A DNA stretch of 64,000 nucleotides from Ornithinimicrobium sediminis (lineage in GTDB: Bacteria; Actinomycetota; Actinomycetes; Actinomycetales; Dermatophilaceae): the NCBI RefSeq assembly GCF_021272345.1, contig NZ_JAJSDQ010000003.1, positions 186,001 to 250,000 of the forward strand, written 5' to 3'. The notes below the pieces were generated by a model, which saw only the letters and a list, made by a program, of their open reading frames with translations, was not told where the DNA came from and ran no database searches. The position numbers and the translations under genes were made by a program. Shown here piece after piece: positions 42,795 to 53,363 of this stretch. Each line of letters begins with the position of its first letter. The first letter of the stretch is position 1.

Positions 42795-42940
42795 CCTTCG
42801 TCGTCCCCGCGGGAGCACTCCCGTCGGTGACCTCAGTTTTCACTCCTGTCCCGCGTGGCGTCGCCACGGAAGCGTCTGCTGCTCCTACGCTCGCCGTGTA
42901 GCAGACCCGTTCGCCCGTGTCGCCGAAAGGGGGGTCGCCC

Positions 42941-45184
42941 GTGACCGTTCCGGCACGCCCTGCCTACGGAGAGCGGCCCGAGGGCGAGGACGGCCGGCCC
43001 CCGGGCACGGTCGACCTGCTGGAGGCACCCGCCCGGTCGCGCCGGCCCCCGCCCGTCACCCCCCACGCCCCACCCCGGCCCCAGGTCGACACCGGGCGCG
43101 TGACGCGCCGCGGCGGCGGCCCTCGTGGCCCGAGCGGCATCGACCCACGGCCCGGTCACATCCCCGGCCTCGACGGCATCCGGGCACTGGCGATCCTGGG
43201 CGTGCTGGTCTTCCACTACACCCCTGCCCTGCTGCCCGGGGGCTTCCTGGGGGTCGACGTGTTCTTCGTCGTGTCCGGCTTCCTCATCACCACCCTGCTC
43301 ATGCGCGAGCTCGCCCAGCGCGGCCGGATCGACCTGCCGCGCTTCTGGCTGCGGCGGGCCAGACGTCTGCTGCCGGCCCTGTTCACCGTGGTCGTGCTCA
43401 GCGTCGCCGCGGCCCGGGTGGTGGGCGGCGACCTGCTCGTCGCGATCGGACGGCAGACCTTCGGTGCCCTGACCTTCTCGACGAACTGGGTGGAGATCGT
43501 GGCCGGGGCGAGCTACTTCCACTCCACCTCCCCGCTGCTCTTCGTCAACTTCTGGTCGCTCGCGGTCGAGGAGCAGTTCTACCTGCTGTGGCCGTTCGGC
43601 CTGGTGCTCGTGCTGGCCCTGACCTCCGGCACCCGGCACCGTCTCTACGTCGCGGGCGGGCTCGCCCTGGCCTCCGCCACCGCGATGGCCGTCCTCTACA
43701 CCCCTGGCGAGGACGCGACCCGCGTCTACTACGGCACCGACACCCACGCCTTCGGCCTGATGCTCGGCGTGGCCCTCGCCTTCGCCTGGGCCGGTCCGGA
43801 GCGGGCCTGGCTGCGCACCGAGACGTGGCGGCGCTGGCGAGGAGCGGCCGTGGGCCTGTCGCTGCTCACGCTGGTCGGTCTCATGGTCTGGCTCACGGAG
43901 GCCACCGCCTTCACCTTCCGCGGAGGCATCCTGCTGGCCTGCCTGGCCACCGTGGTCCTCATCGCCGGCCTGCTCGAGAGCAACAGCCCGTGGCGGCTGT
44001 GGATGAGCCTGCCGGTGCTGGGCTGGCTGGGCAGCCGGTCCTACGGTCTCTACCTGTGGCACTGGCCGGTGCTCGTGATCGCGGCGGCGCTCGTGCCCTT
44101 CGCCCACGGCACCCTGCGCGGCTGGCTGGTGATCTCCACGGCGCTGCTCGTCTCCTTCGTCATCACCGAGCTGTCCTACCGGCTCGTGGAGACCCCCATC
44201 CGCCGACACGGCTTCCTGGCGCCGCTGCGGAGCGCCGTGCGCTGGCTCGCGACCCCCTGGACCCACTCCCGGCTGCCCCGCCTGGTGGCCGGTGGGCTGG
44301 CGCTGGTCCTGCTGCTGACGGTGGTGGCGGTGCTCACGGCACCGGAGAAGTCGGAGACGCAGCGCCAGATCGAGGCGGCGGAGGCAGCGATGAACGCACC
44401 CGTGACCGGTTCGGCCGCCCGCGTGGAGGCGGCGCGCGGGCTCGCCCTGGGCACCATGGCGACGCCGCTCGAGGAGGACGCCGGGGCTCCGGCCGTCGAC
44501 GAGGCCCTGGAGGATGAGACCGAGGAGGCCCTCGAGGAGGACGCCGGGGCTCCGGCCGTCGACGAGGCCCTGGAGGATGAGACCGAGGAGGCCCTCGAGG
44601 AGGAGGCCGACGAGGGGGCGGAGGCCGCCGAGCAGCCCGCATCGGGTGCTGCGGCCGACTGGGGCTGGACCGAGGACGAGGACGGCCTGCTGGTGCCGGC
44701 CGGGGAGGACCTCACGGCGATCGGTGACTCCCTCGTCGTGACCAGCCGGGACGGCCTGTCCTACCGCTTCCCCGACATCAGCTATGCCGCGAAGTCGAAC
44801 CGGCAGTGGAAGGACGCCCTGCCGGTCCTGGAGCAGGCGCTGGCCGAGGGGTCCGTGCGCGACAACGTGGTGGTGCACTTCGGCACCAACGCCGGTGTCG
44901 ACGAGGAGCAGGCCAGGGCGTTCGTGGAGGCACTCGGCCCCGACCGGCGCGTGGTGCTGATGAACCTCTACGGCTCCAGCACGTTCGTGCCCGGCTCCAA
45001 CGAGGTCATCGCCGAGATCGCCGCCGACCGCCCCAACGTCGTCGTCGGGGACTGGCAGGCGGCAGCCACGGCGCAGCCGGAGACCCTCCAGTCGGACCGG
45101 ATCCACCCGGACATCGACGGCATGCACGTGTATGCCGAGGTGGTCGCCGAGTCCTTCGACGCACTGGCCCGCGGAGAGGGCTGA
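42941..45184 (+). CDS. OafA-like acyltransferase with C-terminal SGNH domain
   Basis: 747 aa from a GTG preceded by AAAGGGGGG; an in-frame GTG at 42917 is an alternative. A 70-residue Pro/Arg-rich cytosolic N-terminus, then the acyltransferase-3 domain with about 10 helices, starting GLDGIRALAILGVLVFHYTPALLPGGFLGVDVFFVVSGFLITTLL (catalytic His in the first helix). After a further membrane helix comes an acidic linker with a perfect 21-residue duplication and an SGNH esterase/transferase domain (GDSLV ... HFGTNAG ... IHPD). Such proteins acetylate cell-wall polymers or surface glycans. Confidence 0.9.
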   Translation: MTVPARPAYGERPEGEDGRPPGTVDLLEAPARSRRPPPVTPHAPPRPQVDTGRVTRRGGGPRGPSGIDPRPGHIPGLDGIRALAILGVLVFHYTPALLPGGFLGVDVFFVVSGFLITTLLMRELAQRGRIDLPRFWLRRARRLLPALFTVVVLSVAAARVVGGDLLVAIGRQTFGALTFSTNWVEIVAGASYFHSTSPLLFVNFWSLAVEEQFYLLWPFGLVLVLALTSGTRHRLYVAGGLALASATAMAVLYTPGEDATRVYYGTDTHAFGLMLGVALAFAWAGPERAWLRTETWRRWRGAAVGLSLLTLVGLMVWLTEATAFTFRGGILLACLATVVLIAGLLESNSPWRLWMSLPVLGWLGSRSYGLYLWHWPVLVIAAALVPFAHGTLRGWLVISTALLVSFVITELSYRLVETPIRRHGFLAPLRSAVRWLATPWTHSRLPRLVAGGLALVLLLTVVAVLTAPEKSETQRQIEAAEAAMNAPVTGSAARVEAARGLALGTMATPLEEDAGAPAVDEALEDETEEALEEDAGAPAVDEALEDETEEALEEEADEGAEAAEQPASGAAADWGWTEDEDGLLVPAGEDLTAIGDSLVVTSRDGLSYRFPDISYAAKSNRQWKDALPVLEQALAEGSVRDNVVVHFGTNAGVDEEQARAFVEALGPDRRVVLMNLYGSSTFVPGSNEVIAEIAADRPNVVVGDWQAAATAQPETLQSDRIHPDIDGMHVYAEVVAESFDALARGEG
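44471..44596 (+). repeat. Perfect 63-bp tandem duplication inside the acyltransferase gene
   Basis: Bases 44471-44533 and 44534-44596 are identical and in frame, each encoding a 21-residue acidic unit (EEDAGAPAVDEALEDE followed by TEEAL) in the linker before the SGNH domain. Identity at the DNA level points to a recent or continually homogenised event. Confidence 0.9.
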
Positions 45185-45216
45185 CGCCTGCCTGCGTTTA
45201 TGGCAGGCTCGGTGAC

Positions 45217-46437
45217 GTGAACATCGTCTTCGTCGAGCCGCACTTCCCGAAGAGCCAGCGCGAGTTCGTGCGCGCACTCGCGGAGGCAGGGGCGTTCGTG
45301 ATGGGCGTCGGCGAGACCCCGGCGGAGTATCTGGACGACCAGCTCAGGTCGTGGATGGGTCACTACGAGCAGGTCGGCTCGGTCACCGACCTGGAGGCGA
45401 TGACGCACGTCGTCCGCCGCCTGCAGAGCTGGGTGTGGGTCGACCGCCTGGAGTCGACCATCGAGTCGCACATGATGCCCGCGGCCATGGTCCGCGAGGC
45501 GACCGGCATCCCGGGCACCTCCGTGCACACCACCTGGCTGTGTCGCGACAAGCCGTCGATGAAGGAGGCCCTGCGGGCGGCCGGCGTCCCGACGGCCGCC
45601 TCGGTCGCCGCCGACGACGTGGAGCAGATCCGCGCCTTCGCCGCACAGGTCGGCTACCCGCTCGTCCTCAAGCCCCGGGACGGCGCGGGCGCGGCCGCGA
45701 CCAGCCGGGTCGACAACGACAGCCAGCTCGAGGAGGCGCTGGGGCAGTTCGGCCACGGCACCACCTCGATCGCCGTCGAGGAGTTCGTGGAGGGCCACGA
45801 GGGCTTCTACGACACCATCAGCATCAACGGCGAGCCCGCTCTCGACTTCGCCTCGCACTACTACCCGGGCGTGCTCGAGGCGATGCGCACGCGGTGGGTC
45901 TCACCGCAGTACATCGCGACCAACCGCATCGACAGCGGAGGGCTCTACGACGAGATCCGTGAGATGGGCCGCACCGTCGTGCAGGCCCTCGGCATCCAGA
46001 CCTCCGCCACGCACATGGAGTGGTTCCACGGCCCCAAGGGTCTGAGGTTCAGCGAGATCGGCGCCCGCCCGCCGGGGGTGGGCTGCTGGGACCTCTACTC
46101 CGCCGGCAACGACATCGACGTCTACCGGGCCTGGGCCGAGGCCGTGCTCTACGGCCACACGGACATCCGGCCCACCCGCAGCCACTCCGCCGGCATCATC
46201 GCGCTGCGCCCCGACCGCGACGGCACGATCAGCCACTACTCCGGGCTGGAGGACGTGGAGAACCGCATGGGTCGATGGATCATCGACGCGCACCTGCCGG
46301 GGTCGGGCACGCCCACCCAGCCGGTGGCCAACGGCTATATGGCCAACGCCTGGATCCGTATGCGGCACCCGGACTACGACGTGCTGCGCACGATGCTCGA
46401 CGACGTCGGCAGCAGCGTGCAGGTCCATGCCCACTGA
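45217..46437 (+). CDS. ATP-grasp ligase of unknown product
   Basis: 406 aa from a GTG at 45217. N-terminal pre-ATP-grasp domain (NIVFVEPHFPKSQREFVRAL), ATP-grasp fold at about 105-310: ATP-binding Lys in YPLVLKPRDGAGAA, hinge VEEFVEGHEGFYDTISING, and the metal/carboxylate region RFSEIGARPPGVG. Family members join a carboxylate to an amine or other nucleophile via an acyl phosphate. The next gene starts inside its last codons (11-bp overlap) and the third follows with a 4-bp overlap, so the three form one translation-coupled unit. Product unknown; a peptide or amide is the most likely kind. Confidence 0.82.
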   Translation: MNIVFVEPHFPKSQREFVRALAEAGAFVMGVGETPAEYLDDQLRSWMGHYEQVGSVTDLEAMTHVVRRLQSWVWVDRLESTIESHMMPAAMVREATGIPGTSVHTTWLCRDKPSMKEALRAAGVPTAASVAADDVEQIRAFAAQVGYPLVLKPRDGAGAAATSRVDNDSQLEEALGQFGHGTTSIAVEEFVEGHEGFYDTISINGEPALDFASHYYPGVLEAMRTRWVSPQYIATNRIDSGGLYDEIREMGRTVVQALGIQTSATHMEWFHGPKGLRFSEIGARPPGVGCWDLYSAGNDIDVYRAWAEAVLYGHTDIRPTRSHSAGIIALRPDRDGTISHYSGLEDVENRMGRWIIDAHLPGSGTPTQPVANGYMANAWIRMRHPDYDVLRTMLDDVGSSVQVHAH

Positions 46438-47359
46438 GCCGCACATCACCTTCCTCGGCCCCCAGCGCACCCCTCGTCTCGACGAGGTCGTGGCCTCGCT
46501 GGGCCTGCACGGCCCGTTCGCGACGGTCAACGCCGGCTGGCAGGAGCGCGAGCCCGAGGACGAGCTGCTCGACAGCATGCTCGGCGGCCGGAGCCACAAC
46601 CTGCACCTGTGGCGTCGCATGCAACAGCTGTGGGAGGCCGACCCGGAGTTCGCCGAGGCCGACCGCGAGCGCCGCGACGTGCTCGAGGAGATGCAGCAGC
46701 TCTACCTGCAGGGTCTGGACCATGCTATGGCGGCGATCACCGAGCTGCACCAGCACACGCCGCGCAACGCCTGGGTGATGGAGACCGCCCTGGCGGACAC
46801 CGAGCGCATCGTGCGTGACCTGGACGCCCGGCACCTGGAGCGGGTCGCCGAGGTGCACGCCGAGTTCTGGTCGCGCACCACACCACACGAGCGGGCCGAG
46901 CTGGCCGAGGCGCGGGAGGCCATCGCGGTCGAGCTGAGCGACGTGGAGGCCGTCGTCATCCCCGGCGGCCACGTGGGGGTGCTCCTCGGCGCGCTGCACC
47001 TGTTCAACATCGCGCCGGCGCTGGACGTGCCGGTCGTCGCCTGGGGCGCCGGTGCCATGGCGCTCACCGAGCGCGTCGTGCTCTTCCACGACCGGGCCGC
47101 GCACGGCCCGGCCGTGGCCGAGGTGTTCGCTCCTGGTCTGGGGCTGGTCAAGGAGACCGTGGCCCTGCCGTCGGCCCGTGAGCGCCTCGACCTGGCCAAC
47201 CACGACCGGATGGCGATCCTGGCCCGCCGGTTCGCCCCCTCGCGGTGCCTGCTGCTGGATGCCGGCGCGCAGGTCCACGTCGGCGCGGACGGACGGCTGC
47301 CCGCGGGCGCGACGGTCATCGGACCCGCAGGCTCCGCCCAGCCCCTGGAGGCGGCATGA
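46427..47359 (+). CDS. Peptidase S51/class I GATase-like protein lacking the nucleophile serine
   Basis: 310 aa. The N-terminal half is helical and unrecognised. The C-terminal half (about 165-305) looks like the S51/cyanophycinase fold: AVVIPGGHVGVLLGALHLFN, then VPVVAWGAGAMALTERVVLFHD, then a LARRFAPSRCLLLDAGAQV ending. In S51 enzymes the elbow reads xSAGA with the nucleophile Ser; here it is WGAGA, so catalysis by the usual Ser is excluded. It may be a binding or scaffold partner of the ATP-grasp enzyme. Overlaps both neighbours. Confidence 0.7.
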   Translation: MPTEPHITFLGPQRTPRLDEVVASLGLHGPFATVNAGWQEREPEDELLDSMLGGRSHNLHLWRRMQQLWEADPEFAEADRERRDVLEEMQQLYLQGLDHAMAAITELHQHTPRNAWVMETALADTERIVRDLDARHLERVAEVHAEFWSRTTPHERAELAEAREAIAVELSDVEAVVIPGGHVGVLLGALHLFNIAPALDVPVVAWGAGAMALTERVVLFHDRAAHGPAVAEVFAPGLGLVKETVALPSARERLDLANHDRMAILARRFAPSRCLLLDAGAQVHVGADGRLPAGATVIGPAGSAQPLEAA

Positions 47360-48540
47360 CGACCACGCCCGTGGAGCACCCGAGCAAGCAGCGGCGGCGG
47401 CACAAGCTCGCGATCAACCGGCTGCGGGAGTCCGAGGGCCTCGACGAGGCGGCGGTGGACGCCTTCGTCGCCGAGCACGCCGTCCCCGTCGTCGAGGGCT
47501 CCAAGTGCACCTTCCTGTTCCGCGGGGAGGCCGACGAGGTCTGGGTGCGGCACCGCATCGTCAACCAGCCGCAGCGGGTGCCGATGAAGCGGGTGCCCGG
47601 TCTGTCCCTGTGGTGGGTCACCATCGAGCTGCCGGAGGGCTCCCGGGTGGAGTACCAGCTCGAGATCCGCCGCGGGGAGCACTACGAGCACCTCAACGAC
47701 CCGCTGAACCCGCACGTCGCGCACAGCCCGGTCGGGTCGTCGTCGGTGTGCCACGCGGTCGGCTACACCACCCCCGACTGGGTGCTGCACGACCCCGACT
47801 CCCGCCCCGGCGAGCTGCACGACCTGCAGTTCCACTCCAAGGCGCTGCGCCGCAACACCACCAGCCGCGTCTACCTGCCGGCACGCTTCCGCCGCACCAC
47901 GTCATACCCGCTGCTGGTCGTGCACGACGGTGACGACTACCTCAACTACGCCGCCATGAAGACCGTGCTGGACAACCTCATCCACCGGCTCGACATGGCC
48001 GAGACCATCGTCGTCTTCTCCAACCCCGCCGACCGGCTGCGGGAGTACCCCAACTACGCCGCGCACGCCCGCCACATCAGCGCCGAGCTCATCCCGTCGC
48101 TGCACGAGCGGCTCCCGCTGATCGACCGACCCGACGCGCGCTGCCTGATGGGGGCCAGCTTCGGCGGCGTCGCCTCGCTGTCCGTCGCCTACCGCAAGCC
48201 CGACCTGGTCGGCTCGCTGCTGCTGCAGTCGGGCTCGTTCGTCTTCACCGACATCGGCGACGAGCACGGTGGAGGCCCGGCCTTCGACCCCGTCGTGAAG
48301 TTCATGAACCGCTACCGCGAGCGCCCTCGCAAGGTCGCCGAGCGCATGTTCATGACCTGTGGCGTCTACGAGCCGCTCATCGTCCACAACCGCTCGATGG
48401 TGCCGGTCTTCGAGTCGACCGGCACGACGGTGCGGTATGTCGAGGCGCGGGACGGGCACTCATGGGAGAACTGGCGCGACCGGCTGCGGGACGGCCTGTC
48501 GTGGATCTTCCCCGGCCCACAGCGCTTCGTCTACGAGTAG
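47356..48540 (+). CDS. Fes-like esterase (alpha/beta hydrolase with N-terminal E-set domain)
   Basis: 394 aa from the ATG at 47356 (4-bp overlap with the previous stop). Residues 40-140 form an immunoglobulin-like domain as in enterochelin esterases (CTFLFRGEADEVWVRHRIVN, WWVTIELPEGSRVEYQLEI). The catalytic domain (150-390) has LLVVHDGDDYLNY, nucleophile Ser in LMGASFGGVASL, and the final His in EARDGHSWENWR, so it looks active. Members hydrolyse ester bonds in siderophores, peptides or cell-wall lipids. Coupling to the ATP-grasp gene suggests it releases or edits that enzyme's product. Confidence 0.85.
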   Translation: MTTTPVEHPSKQRRRHKLAINRLRESEGLDEAAVDAFVAEHAVPVVEGSKCTFLFRGEADEVWVRHRIVNQPQRVPMKRVPGLSLWWVTIELPEGSRVEYQLEIRRGEHYEHLNDPLNPHVAHSPVGSSSVCHAVGYTTPDWVLHDPDSRPGELHDLQFHSKALRRNTTSRVYLPARFRRTTSYPLLVVHDGDDYLNYAAMKTVLDNLIHRLDMAETIVVFSNPADRLREYPNYAAHARHISAELIPSLHERLPLIDRPDARCLMGASFGGVASLSVAYRKPDLVGSLLLQSGSFVFTDIGDEHGGGPAFDPVVKFMNRYRERPRKVAERMFMTCGVYEPLIVHNRSMVPVFESTGTTVRYVEARDGHSWENWRDRLRDGLSWIFPGPQRFVYE

Positions 48541-48550
48541 TCTCGCGAGG

Positions 48551-48573
48551 ACCGGACCCGGAGGGGGTCCGGT
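48551..48573 (+). terminator. Short hairpin between esterase and NYN genes
   Basis: ACCGGACCC (48551-48559) pairs with GGGTCCGGT (48565-48573), 5-nt loop, 10 bp after the esterase stop. It may end or attenuate the three-gene cluster transcript before the NYN gene. Confidence 0.55.
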
Positions 48574-48594
48574 GGTATCGAGCTAAGGACCCTG

Positions 48595-49170
48595 ATGAGC
48601 ACGGAGACGCCCGCACCGGAGCGGCTGACCTACCTGCTGGTCGACGGCGAGAACATCGACGCGACGATCGGCAACTCCATCCTGAGCCGCCGGCCGCACC
48701 CCGAGGAGCGACCTCGCTGGGACCGGCTGCTCACCTTCGCCGAGGGCCAGTGGGAGCAGCCGGCCAAGGGGCTGTTCTTCCTCAACGCCTCCTCGGGCCT
48801 GCCCATGGCCTTCGTCCAGGCGCTGCGCGCCATCGGCTACGCCACCGTGCCGCTGTCCGGCTCGGGCGACGACAAGGTCGTCGACATGGCCATCATCCGC
48901 ACCCTGGCCGCCATCCAGGACCGCGCGGCCGACGTCATGCTCGTCAGCCACGACGGTGACTTCGTCGATCAGATGGACCCGCTGGTGGACGGGGAGCGCC
49001 GGGTCGGCCTGATGGCCTTCGAGGAGTTCCGCAACCACGGCTTCGCCGCCCTGGAGGCGCGCGGGATGGAGTTCTTCGACCTCGAGCACGACGCCAAGGC
49101 CTTCAACACCCGCCTGCCGCGCCTGCGGATCATCCCGATCGAGGAGTTCGACCCGCTGGACTTCCTCTAG
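48595..49170 (+). CDS. NYN domain (PIN-like) nuclease
   Basis: 191 aa with AAGGA ahead of the ATG. PIN-like acidic residues are visible in YLLVDGENIDATIG, GSGDDKVVDMAIIRTL and VMLVSHDGDFVDQMDPL, so metal-dependent RNase activity is likely. It resembles the LabA/Rv-type NYN proteins of actinobacteria. It follows the three-gene cluster by 54 bp with a small hairpin between, so a functional link is uncertain. Confidence 0.85.
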   Translation: MSTETPAPERLTYLLVDGENIDATIGNSILSRRPHPEERPRWDRLLTFAEGQWEQPAKGLFFLNASSGLPMAFVQALRAIGYATVPLSGSGDDKVVDMAIIRTLAAIQDRAADVMLVSHDGDFVDQMDPLVDGERRVGLMAFEEFRNHGFAALEARGMEFFDLEHDAKAFNTRLPRLRIIPIEEFDPLDFL

Positions 49171-50757: not shown

Positions 50758-50772
50758 ACCCCCTGCTTGCAA
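50758..50772 (+). repeat. Candidate attachment-site core, left copy
   Basis: ACCCCCTGCTTGCAA, identical and in the same orientation as bases 56262-56276 within tRNA-Ala. It lies between the VOC stop and the excisionase gene, as expected for an element end. Confidence 0.55.
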
Positions 50773-50877
50773 GGCCGGTTCGTCGTCCGGTGGATTATCC
50801 AACGGGACGGTCGAGCACCTGTCTGGTCCGCACGGGATCTGGCCTCTGGAGGTCGCTCCCTGACGAAGGGAGTGGAC

Positions 50878-51126
50878 ATGTCAACGATGGCAAGCGGAAG
50901 TCCGGAGCAGCGGCGGAAGGCGCCTATCGGCCTGATCCAGCGGCGGTGGTACACCGTGTCCGAGGTCGCGGAGATGCTCGGCTACGGACCGACCAAGGTG
51001 CGGATGATGTGCATCAGCGGCGACCTGCGCTTGCTCAAGGACGGCGGGTCCCGGCGCATCCTGCCGGCGTGGGTCGACGAGTACGTCGCCATGCGGGCCG
51101 CCGAGGCGGAGGCGGACTGGCCGTGA
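50878..51126 (+). CDS. Excisionase-type helix-turn-helix protein
   Basis: 82 aa with GAAGGGAG just before the ATG. A MerR-like winged helix: RWYTVSEVAEMLGYGPTKVRMMCISGDLRLLKDGGSRRILPAWVDEYV, typical of excisionases and of helper proteins encoded directly before tyrosine integrases. It overlaps the integrase reading frame by 4 bp. Probably controls direction of recombination; with the integrase broken it may be inert. Confidence 0.8.
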   Translation: MSTMASGSPEQRRKAPIGLIQRRWYTVSEVAEMLGYGPTKVRMMCISGDLRLLKDGGSRRILPAWVDEYVAMRAAEAEADWP

Positions 51127-52340
51127 GCAGGCGAGCCAACATGGAGGGGTCGATCTACCCGTACCGGGACGGCTCGCAGCGCATGTGTGGATCACACTCC
51201 CGCGGGCCGGCGGCAGCGCAAGTCGGTCTATGGGCAGACCCGGGCCGAGGTCCATGAGAAGTGGCTGCGTCTGCACGAGCGGGCACGGCGTGGCTCGGTC
51301 GTCCCGGTCCCGCCAAGCTGCGCGACTTCCTGGAGCAGTGGCTCAAGGGGACCGTCCGCCCCGGGCTGTCACCGGCCACCGCGAGCAACTACGAGACGTT
51401 CACCCGGCTCTACATCGTCCCCGACCTGGGGACCTCAAGCTCGAGAAGCTGGCGGTCCGCGATGTCCGGACCCGGGTCAACGAGCTGCGGGCGCAGTGCC
51501 CGTGCTGCTTTCAGAGCAAGGACACCGCGCGGCCGGATCCGCAGTGCTGCGCACGGGGGCAGTGCTGCCACGAGGTCGCCTCGGAGTGGACGGTGCACCA
51601 GGCGTGGCGGGTGCTCCGCGCGGGGCGCTGACCCAGGCGATGCGGGAGGAGCTCGTGTACCGGAACGTGGCCGCGCTCGTGCGCGTGCCCGTGCCCCGGG
51701 CGAAGCGATCGGCCGTTTGGTCGGTGGACGACGCGCGGCGGTTCCTCGAGTCGGCCCGTGACGCCAAGGATGCGATGTATGCGCCCTACGTGCTGCTCCT
51801 CGTGCTCGGGCTGCGGCGGGGCGAGGTGTTTGGGCTGGCGTGGAAGGACGTCGACCTGGAGCGGGGCGAGGCGTACATCGCCTGGCGGGTGCAGCGGGTC
51901 GACGGCCGGTTGCTCCGGCGGCGGACGAGGACCCCGTCGTCGGACGCGCCGCTGCCCCTGCCCGACATCGCGGTGCAGGCGCTCGAGCGGCACCGGGCCG
52001 ACGAGGATCGGCGACGGATCGCCGCCGGCGACATGTGGGGCGACTGCGGCCTCGTCTTCACGACCCGTCTGGGCGACCCGGTCGATCCGCGCAACTTCCA
52101 CACGGCGTTCAAAACCCGGGCGCGCAAGGCCGGCGTCCCTCTCGTCCCGGTTCACGCCACGCGACGGACCTGCGCGAGCCTGCTCGTCTCGCTCGACGTG
52201 CACCCACGCGTGGCGATGGCGGTGCTGCGTCACAGCAGGATCGCGCTGACCATGGGGTCTACTCCCAAGTCTCGTCCCACGCCACGCGCGACGCCCTGCG
52301 CCAACTCGGCGGGCGGTTGGGGGAGGCCTCAGCCGGGTAA
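51123..52340 (+). pseudogene. Tyrosine integrase, broken by five frameshifts
   Basis: The product would be about 405 aa. Pieces in different frames give MEGSIYPYRDGSQRM, then KSVYGQTRAEVHEKWL, FLEQWLKGTVRPGLSPATASNYETF, a Cys-rich insert CPCCFQSKD ... CCARGQCCHEV, and a catalytic domain with LGLRRGEVFGLAW (Arg), VHATRRT (His-x-x-Arg) and LRHSRIALT (His). Shifts lie near 51187, 51311, 51434, 51618 and 52257; the last separates the catalytic Tyr (VYSQVSS) from the rest. Neighbouring genes are intact, so decay is likelier than poor sequence, though three shifts touch short homopolymers. Confidence 0.85.
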
Positions 52341-52356
52341 GAGGGAACGGGCACGG

Positions 52357-52388
52357 CAGTGCCTTCCCGCGGCCGCGGGAAGGCACTG
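52357..52388. terminator. Perfect 32-bp palindrome after the integrase
   Basis: CAGTGCCTTCCCGCGG (52357-52372) followed at once by its exact complement. Either a terminator of the integrase transcript or a protein-binding site near the convergent AbiEii end. Confidence 0.6.
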
Positions 52389-52478
52389 GCTCTGGGAGAA
52401 GTTCCGGGCTTGCCGTGCTCGGCTCACCGTCCCCCGACCCAGTCGTGTCGACGTGGAAGAGCCCTTACTCGACCGGGG

Positions 52479-53363
52479 TCAGGAGGAACCCACGGGTCTC
52501 GCATCGTCCACCGGCTCAGACGGGCCAGCGGGGCGCCACCCAGACTCCAAAGCCACCAGAATTTCATCACGCCGTCCTAAATCACTGGGCCAGGCTCCAA
52601 CACTGGTGTCCAGAATGAACTCGGCAATCAGGTCATCCTTAGATCCAGGCCACCTGTCATTCAATTCGTCGACTCGCTGTTGACCGACGTGAGTGGCGAT
52701 GTCAACACCGAGAATGTGTGCCGCAGCCTGCCTGACGTCCATGTCGTATCTGGTCAGTGCTTGGATTCCGGCTGCCGTGTCATAGAGCAGAGACCCCACG
52801 GCGCTTGACTCGGCATACCAGTGAACGCACGTCGCTAGATCTCGCGCGTCCTTAAACTCACCGTAGGCATGTCGGTCCAACCAAGCTGCAAGTTTTAGCG
52901 CTGCGTATCCCTCGACCGCCGGGATCCGAATTTCAATTCCGCTCGGCAGGACCAAGGGCATCGATCCTGCAAACACCTCACGAAATGCCCAGACACTTAG
53001 TGGCTCGCCTCGCCCGTGCGGCGTCACCATTCCGACTGGGTCTTCGACGTCACCGAAAGGCATCAAGTCGGTGACCACGCCGCCAAGCTTGTATCGGATT
53101 CCCGTCTTACCAGAGGAATCCAAAGGACGCACGATTTCTTCGTAATCGCCCAAGTCGGAAATCATTATGCCTATGTCAAGGTCACTCGTAAGGGCGAGGC
53201 CCTCGACGTGGCCTAGTGCACTGTGGATCACATCTCGACAGCGGGCCCCCACCAGCATTATCCGGTCGGCACTCAGGCCCTGCGACTTCTCCAAAAGATC
53301 TTCGACGACCCTATCGGGCAAGTGTAGGAGGCCCGGCTCACATCGACTGAAGTCAGGCTTCAT
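52479..53363 (-). CDS. abiEii: Nucleotidyltransferase toxin, AbiEii-like
   Basis: 294 aa from the ATG at 53363, which overlaps the antitoxin gene by 11 bp. Polymerase-beta-type nucleotidyltransferase core: GAR at 39-41, Asp61 and Asp63 in SDLDIGI and Asp99 in VVTDLMPFG complete the acidic triad. AbiEii-type toxins arrest growth by adding nucleotides, for example to tRNA ends, and protect populations against phage. Codon use is less GC-biased than in neighbouring genes, a sign of transfer. It could also be a nucleotidyltransferase of another type IV-like pair. Confidence 0.75.
   Translation of the reverse strand: MKPDFSRCEPGLLHLPDRVVEDLLEKSQGLSADRIMLVGARCRDVIHSALGHVEGLALTSDLDIGIMISDLGDYEEIVRPLDSSGKTGIRYKLGGVVTDLMPFGDVEDPVGMVTPHGRGEPLSVWAFREVFAGSMPLVLPSGIEIRIPAVEGYAALKLAAWLDRHAYGEFKDARDLATCVHWYAESSAVGSLLYDTAAGIQALTRYDMDVRQAAAHILGVDIATHVGQQRVDELNDRWPGSKDDLIAEFILDTSVGAWPSDLGRRDEILVALESGWRPAGPSEPVDDARPVGSS

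Follow-up and report, generated by a model that had tools for sequence, protein, structure and literature searches.

A translation-coupled ATP-grasp ligase, S51-like protein and Fes-like esterase in Ornithinimicrobium sediminis as probable members of a larger conserved enzyme system with a possible alpha-glucan link

A proposed system in two halves

A stretch of 64,000 nucleotides from Ornithinimicrobium sediminis (assembly GCF_021272345.1, contig NZ_JAJSDQ010000003.1, positions 186,001 to 250,000 of the forward strand; hereafter the window) carries three overlapping genes for an ATP-grasp ligase, an S51-like protein and a Fes-like esterase. A first-pass annotation of the window had proposed them as a three-gene system making, holding and editing a small peptide or amide. 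Our results are best explained if the trio makes up half of a conserved system of several enzymes, and if in this genome the other half consists of a RimK-like ATP-grasp gene and a second, small esterase gene (Est2) on another contig. That the trio and these partners form one system we consider highly probable. Homology searches show that the cassette recurs in three phyla; some copies include an extra glycogen synthase, and GlgC, a branching-enzyme-like protein or phosphorylase is sometimes present. The nature of the product is more tentative: our preferred reading, an alpha-glucan-linked aminoacyl or peptidyl compound, has in our judgment somewhat less than an even chance of being right. The genes concerned are the following.

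45217-46437, plus strand: P0001 (406 aa, GTG start), putative L-amino-acid-ligase-type ATP-grasp enzyme
46427-47359, plus strand: P0002 (310 aa), S51 (cyanophycinase/peptidase E)-like protein with Gly207 instead of the nucleophile serine
47356-48540, plus strand: P0003 (394 aa), Fes/CE1-like esterase with an N-terminal beta domain and an alpha/beta hydrolase domain
G000:C7:884086-886129 (locus L054:8087-10130), minus strand: RimK-like and Est2 pair, the proposed second half of the system

P0001 and P0002 overlap by 11 bp, and P0002 and P0003 by 4 bp (ATGA); the coordinates are exact and confirm the overlaps first described. Because the same gene order recurs in relatives, the arrangement of the trio is not a matter of chance.

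The cassette in three phyla

After the trio, distant loci often carry a RimK-like ATP-grasp gene and the small esterase Est2 (PF00756), and a cassette of P0002, P0003, RimK-like and Est2, together with one to three P0001-type ligases, recurs in Actinomycetota, Myxococcota and Planctomycetota. We scored 60 regions, drawn from 55 of the 58 Myxococcota-phylum genomes with P0002 (G361, G423 and G540 were left out), from four genomes reached through Myxococcota-type loci and from one planctomycete. P0002 occurs in 59 of them; the other region, L172, was selected around its RimK-like gene, hence P0002 is absent there by choice. P0003 occurs in 53 regions, P0001-type ligases in 37, RimK-like in 35 and Est2 in 26, with GlgA in 12, a GCS2-CBS family in 10 and a formylglutamate-amidohydrolase-like family in seven. 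Wherever P0002 and P0003 are both present (53 of 53 regions) they are adjacent on one strand, with alignment gaps of -3 to 288 nt. The proposal that the trio is one conserved unit is supported, and co-occurrence is strong. In 56 of the 59 distant P0002 loci, one or more of P0003, P0001-type ligases and RimK-like lie nearby, so the objection that such genes might usually be found singly fails.

One could still suppose that unrelated housekeeping genes have come together by chance, the more so as the NYN and acyltransferase genes that flank the trio are likewise syntenic within the genus. However, order and partners are kept across three phyla, and none of the cassette families was found in 20 control regions, which were taken from the same genomes as the cassettes, partly from the same contigs, and are not fully random. 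Given the 59-locus linkage and these control counts, we find a chance grouping hardly credible.

P0002 is present in 30 of 31 genomes of the genus (that of the window included), in two of five other members of the family and in none of 22 from the order. Phylum-wide counts were made among the matches listed per genome, and absence in them means "not found": P0002 occurs in 5 of 296 actinobacterial genomes, in 58 of 188 from the Myxococcota (the phylum of the Myxococcales genome) and in 29 of 199 from the Planctomycetota (that of the planctomycete genome), while P0001-like ligases occur in 6 of the 296 at 1e-30. The first-pass annotation mentioned similar trios in other actinobacteria; the S51-like family is rare in that phylum and commoner in the other two.

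The RimK-like gene and Est2

The RimK-like family has no Pfam match and is weakly similar to rimK_fam (1.6e-3) and to D-Ala ligase. With a RimK-like profile we found a member in the window's genome, on another contig (G000:C7:884107-885318), and Est2 adjoins it on the same strand, 43 bp apart as called. Among 58 relatives, 31 have both P0002 and RimK-like, one has P0002 only (G005, 84% complete), two have RimK-like only and 24 have neither. Phylum-wide, among the matches listed, all five P0002 genomes fall within the 24 of 296 that are RimK-like-positive, an overlap with a chance of about 2e-6 if genomes were independent, which related genomes are not. In the first set of distant P0002 genomes, RimK-like was present in six of six. 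The system is therefore larger than the three genes first proposed, since the RimK-like ATP-grasp and the second esterase appear to belong to it as well, elsewhere in this genome.

Many actinobacteria that have no P0002 carry RimK-like together with Est2 and a distant paralogue of P0003, so this part can exist without the trio. In six loci of one actinobacterial family (L085, L087, L088, L089, L091 and L095) the module lies near ABC-transporter-permease-like genes, and a conserved protein of 560-660 aa of unrecognised kind is also found beside it. In the window's own genome, genes resembling dapB and dapA (candidate names, given from the look of the sequence) lie beyond Est2 at L054, divergent from it.

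Association with glycogen genes

A GT5 glycogen synthase (GlgA) abuts P0001 in 12 of the 60 mainly myxobacterial regions, which are all of the 12 that have GlgA, with alignment gaps of 10-122 nt and on the same strand in 11 of the 12. Each of these genomes has two or three GT5 copies, so that the cassette GlgA is an extra copy; a starch-synthase domain was found in the three of 12 that were tested (1e-75 to 3e-62). Of 20 planctomycete regions, from 20 of the 29 genomes with P0002, 11 contain GlgA, eight GlgC, five phosphorylase (six at a looser cut-off) and 14 any of the three, compared with no GlgA and any of the three in two of the 20 control regions. For example, the actinobacterium G232 has in one run P0001, two further ligases (AG3 and AG2), P0002, P0003, GlgC, GlgA, Est2, RimK-like, a branching-enzyme-like protein (CBM48 and alpha-amylase domains), GH57 and phosphorylase. 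In two genomes of the window's family, G033 and G140, RimK-like has TreS-like, Mak-GlgB and Pgm genes in its neighbourhood. This recurrent link points away from the free small peptide or amide that had been suggested as the product.

Even so, a soluble dipeptide, oligopeptide or amide metabolite, built by the ligases and trimmed or recycled by the esterases and the S51-like enzyme, remains a serious if doubtful candidate. The nearest solved relatives of P0001 (4wd3, BL00235 and BacD) are free-amino-acid ligases, and the window's genome lacks a GT5 GlgA and has no glycogen gene that we could find beside the trio. To account for the glycogen genes elsewhere, stored carbon would have to feed the product, or GlgA to glucosylate a small molecule. 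Neither sits easily with the position of GlgA, which wherever present in the 60 regions is directly beside P0001, or with the co-occurrence of enzymes that act on polymer and not on a small glucoside, namely GlgC, the branching-enzyme-like protein, GH57 and phosphorylase.

The same neighbourhood of glycogen enzymes would suit protein tagging. RimK adds amino acids to ribosomal protein S6, and the weak similarity to rimK_fam allows the idea that a protein is tagged with amino acids by RimK-like and P0001-type ligases and freed of them by the hydrolases, as a control on glycogen enzymes or granules. We regard this as unlikely: P0001-type ligases look like small-molecule ligases, two esterases suit the removal of esters but not of isopeptides, and no recurrent small substrate-protein gene was seen among the neighbour clusters (open reading frames under 90-100 aa were not searched).

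Two further observations concern extra amidohydrolases at the edges of cassettes. An N-formylglutamate-amidohydrolase-like gene precedes GlgA in L142, L143, L144, L146, L147, L148 and L150; the one member of this family that was tested scored 7e-5, below the cut-off. An AstE/AspA-like amidohydrolase (1.7e-15) lies at the cassette edge at L119:10851-12014.

The three proteins

P0001 matches the Pfam ATP-grasp family PF02222 above its cut-off (7e-11, 42.5 bits against 27). Its nearest solved relative is the L-amino acid ligase 4wd3 (4e-20, query residues 45-352), other near relatives being BL00235 and BacD, and by domain and ligase match it is assigned as an L-amino-acid-ligase-type ATP-grasp with putative free-amino-acid ligation. 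K152, E188, E268, E280, R284 and others are conserved in at least 97% of 53 sequences of the P0001 clade, the window's included, as read from the alignment and not by mapping onto a solved active site; presumably they have ATP/Mg roles, in agreement with the intact ATP site noted earlier. A midpoint-rooted tree of 119 ligases, with labels assigned by best match, has three clades (P0001, AG2 and AG3); each clade contains all ligases with its label and no others, and all three phyla are represented in each. In the window's genome P0001 is the sole ligase at that score, two other matches reaching 22-25 bits only.

P0001 is also weakly similar to the NCBIfam cyanophycin synthetase (2.3e-11), at 42 bits far below the cut-off of 850, and the top structural match of P0002 is a cyanophycinase relative. 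One might therefore think of a cyanophycin-like peptide storage polymer, which the ATP-grasp ligases would make and the S51-like enzyme would turn over. But cyanophycin synthetase carries a Mur-ligase-type domain, and none is among the Pfam matches of P0001; the nucleophile of P0002 is gone in the window; and the esterases and GlgA would be left unexplained. We consider such a polymer very unlikely.

Alone, P0002 has no family match in Pfam or NCBIfam and no significant match in a single-sequence PDB search, and in profile searches of PDB, which gave weak results, no S51 entry was better than E 0.19. At the level of the family, 26 of 37 members match Pfam Peptidase_S51 (PF03575) at E<=0.1, the best at 1.1e-8. 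The best Foldseek matches of the AlphaFold2 model (pLDDT 88.8, pTM 0.88) are pseudo-CphB 7uqv (4.6e-5), cyanophycinase 3en0 and peptidase E, over a range of 4.6e-5 to 4e-4. Overall superposition on S51 structures is poor (TM 0.41-0.46 by query length, rmsd 6.5-11), probably because of two long helices, residues 73-109 and 115-151, which in the model look to be an insertion in the S51 fold.

At the nucleophile position the window has WGAGAM where WSAGAM would be expected, with Gly207 in place of serine; P0002 is thus an S51-fold protein rather than an S51 peptidase, and its first description as a cyanophycinase-like fold without nucleophile holds. WGAGAM occurs in 27 loci (the genus or close relatives, and planctomycete locus L032) and WSAGAM in 21, some of these loci overlapping. 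In a wider parse, glycine is found in 25 of 25 genus loci, overlapping loci being counted apart, and serine in 38 of the 44 distant regions (out of 60) that the parse covered, the rest having G (three), A, T and C (one each). P0002 is also the least conserved of the three within the genus, with 50-64% identity to the window against 73-81% for P0001 and 71-77% for P0003 (frameshifted locus L024 left out). Retention of a nucleophile-less P0002 in 30 of 31 genus genomes suggests that it is probably a binding or scaffold subunit there. The "holding" role first proposed is unlikely to be the ancestral one, because most of the distant regions parsed keep the serine.

We do not claim a catalytic histidine at the "LP-H" position of P0002, because His is found there in 29 of 44 distant regions and D, E, N or Q elsewhere. 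A viral origin was likewise rejected, as Foldseek against viral proteins gave no match at E<=0.001 (best 0.016). By profile search, the stretches of L124, L135 and L152 hold P0002 homologues without P0003, ligase or RimK-like; these could be solo forms or scattered cassettes.

P0003 matches Pfam Esterase PF00756 (7e-19). Its model (pLDDT 85.2) retrieves the enterobactin esterase Fes first (3c8d, 5e-24) and CBM48-CE1 feruloyl esterases next (7b5v, 7e-23), at an identity of about 20%. The protein has the two-domain Fes fold with Ser and His, and Ser268 and His368 do not vary (17 of 17), as expected for the enterochelin-esterase-like hydrolase with predicted activity that had been described. Its score against the NCBIfam enterochelin esterase is 95 bits, short of the equivalog cut-off of 222, and hence we call it Fes-like and not Fes.

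Proposed mechanism

If the product is alpha-glucan-linked, as we prefer to read it, the ATP-grasp enzymes would convert the carboxylates of amino acids or short peptides into acyl phosphates and transfer the activated groups to an acceptor with an amine or hydroxyl group. Either this acceptor or whatever carries the product would be an alpha-glucan or a glucan-derived oligosaccharide. P0003 and Est2, as alpha/beta hydrolases, could take off or edit ester-linked groups, and the S51-like protein could cut peptide links where its serine is kept; in this genus, with the nucleophile gone, it would probably serve for binding or as a scaffold. ATP-grasp enzymes can form esters as well as amides, as VanA-type ligases and graspetide cyclases do, an ability that would match the presence of esterases.

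This picture is drawn from genes and sequence, and a number of observations count against it. At E<=1e-15 the window's genome lacks a GT5 glycogen synthase, alpha-glucan queries had no match within the 64-kb window and so none beside the trio, and the Mak-GlgB gene of this genome lies about 0.5 Mb from the RimK-like gene. No alpha-glucan gene was found in 47 of the 60 mainly myxobacterial regions (partly with single-sequence queries), and only 4 of 25 RimK-like loci have a branching-enzyme cluster, the other 21 being without one. CBM48 in P0003-type N-terminal domains is not significant (E 0.14-0.16 in two of four such proteins). The cassette itself is often incomplete: RimK-like is absent from 25 and a P0001-type ligase from 23 of the 59 distant P0002 stretches, some of which end at contig ends. 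Parts also travel alone, as in G031 and G048, which have RimK-like without P0002, and in G333, where a locus has two ligases and RimK-like without P0002 or P0003.

The split loci, the lack of AG2 and AG3 and the inactive-looking S51 subunit raise the possibility that in this genus the system may act on a different acceptor. A bolder form of the alpha-glucan reading, which we would call conceivable rather than probable, is that bacteria belonging to three phyla attach aminoacyl or peptidyl groups to glycogen, or to oligosaccharides derived from it, and remove these groups again. The bacteria would do so with a dedicated set of up to four ATP-grasp ligases, two esterases and an S51-type enzyme, which in part has an extra glycogen synthase of its own, and the product might be a previously undescribed covalent polymer that stores nitrogen and carbon or serves as a mark. 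Bacterial glycogen is commonly regarded as a simple branched glucan that needs few enzymes for its synthesis. A conserved set of ligases and esterases lying next to an extra glycogen synthase in several lineages would imply that a glucan with covalent modifications or bound amino acids, or else a new class of glucosylated peptides, has been overlooked. The gene list makes the idea of glucan modification directly testable, by mass spectrometry of glycogen and by single-enzyme assays, and the window's genus offers a natural variant whose S51 subunit lacks the nucleophile and whose genes lie at two separate loci. Overall, the first-pass interpretation is partly supported.

Boundaries and neighbours of the trio

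Two hairpins flank the trio.

45180-45213, plus strand: stable hairpin between the acyltransferase gene and P0001 (RNA fold -20.3 kcal/mol, z -3.15)
48551-48573, plus strand: perfect 9-bp hairpin 3' of P0003 (fold of 48538-48594 -27.1 kcal/mol, z -2.0)

The first is a possible transcription-unit boundary and the second a possible transcription-unit end. Neither has a T run, and neither was caught by the T-run terminator scan, whose single match, within the NYN gene, is at about chance level; a sigma-70 promoter scan gave no matches. Because the hairpins lack a T run, we infer, and do not assert, that the trio is a separate transcription unit.

The upstream acyltransferase gene (42917-45184) and the downstream NYN gene (48595-49170) are both syntenic in the genus. 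We rejected both as members of the system: the acyltransferase was not found in genus loci L015 and L025 despite long flanks, and neither gene was seen next to the trio in the three other genera of the family that were covered (L045, L048 and L049). A defence system was rejected as well, since neither the trio nor the NYN gene had a PADLOC match at E<=0.1. The acyltransferase, which is SucT-like (PF01757), has an acidic repeated linker at about 44450-44600 in which EEDAGAPAVDEALEDETEEAL occurs twice. Further downstream, at 50767-52683, are an excisionase-like open reading frame and integrase-like sequence, the latter seemingly split over more than one frame. A dip in G+C (0.585) at 53-54 kb adjoins this stretch, with tRNA genes near (56.2-56.6 kb), and the region has the look of the border of an integrated element that has decayed.

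Comparison with known systems

Iyer, Aravind and colleagues are said to have catalogued, in 2009, amidoligase gene clusters with ATP-grasp or GCS2 ligases beside peptidases; the present cassette is like these in general kind. An earlier listing in that survey is possible, but in the part of the open full-text literature that was covered we found no description of the gene set, in keeping with the first-pass statement that no function had been described. The ligase-esterase set is apparently undescribed. In the text examined of a 2024 review of prokaryotic alpha-glucan enzymes (PMC11046441), the terms "ATP-grasp", "esterase" and "amino acid ligase" do not occur.

In several lineages the cassette, or the part of it that holds RimK-like, has immediate neighbours from the glg and TreS-Mak-GlgB clusters (GlgA, GlgC, a branching-enzyme-like protein, phosphorylase or TreS/Mak-GlgB). 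A glycogen synthase in the cluster, by which a glg cluster would be recognised, is absent from the window and present in part of the relatives. A cyanophycin system would have a synthetase and an active cyanophycinase; here P0001 scores 42 against 850 bits and the nucleophile of P0002 is gone.

Each protein of the trio has known relatives from which it departs. The L-amino acid ligases 4wd3, BL00235 and BacD, which we take to be single dipeptide ligases or the bacilysin enzyme, share with P0001 the ATP-grasp fold and a match over much of its length, but P0001 falls in a separate clade, which is accompanied by P0002, P0003, RimK-like and partly GlgA. P0002 has in common with peptidase family S51 (CphB, pseudo-CphB and peptidase E) the fold and the W-S/G-AGA nucleophile segment, and differs in its helical stretch at 73-151, in the change of Ser to Gly in the genus and in having no Pfam match of its own. 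P0003 shares the two-domain architecture, the fold and the conserved Ser and His with Fes and the CBM48-CE1 feruloyl esterases; it is set apart from Fes by an identity of about 20%, by a score below the NCBIfam cut-off and by its neighbours, which are ligases and, in relatives, glycogen genes.

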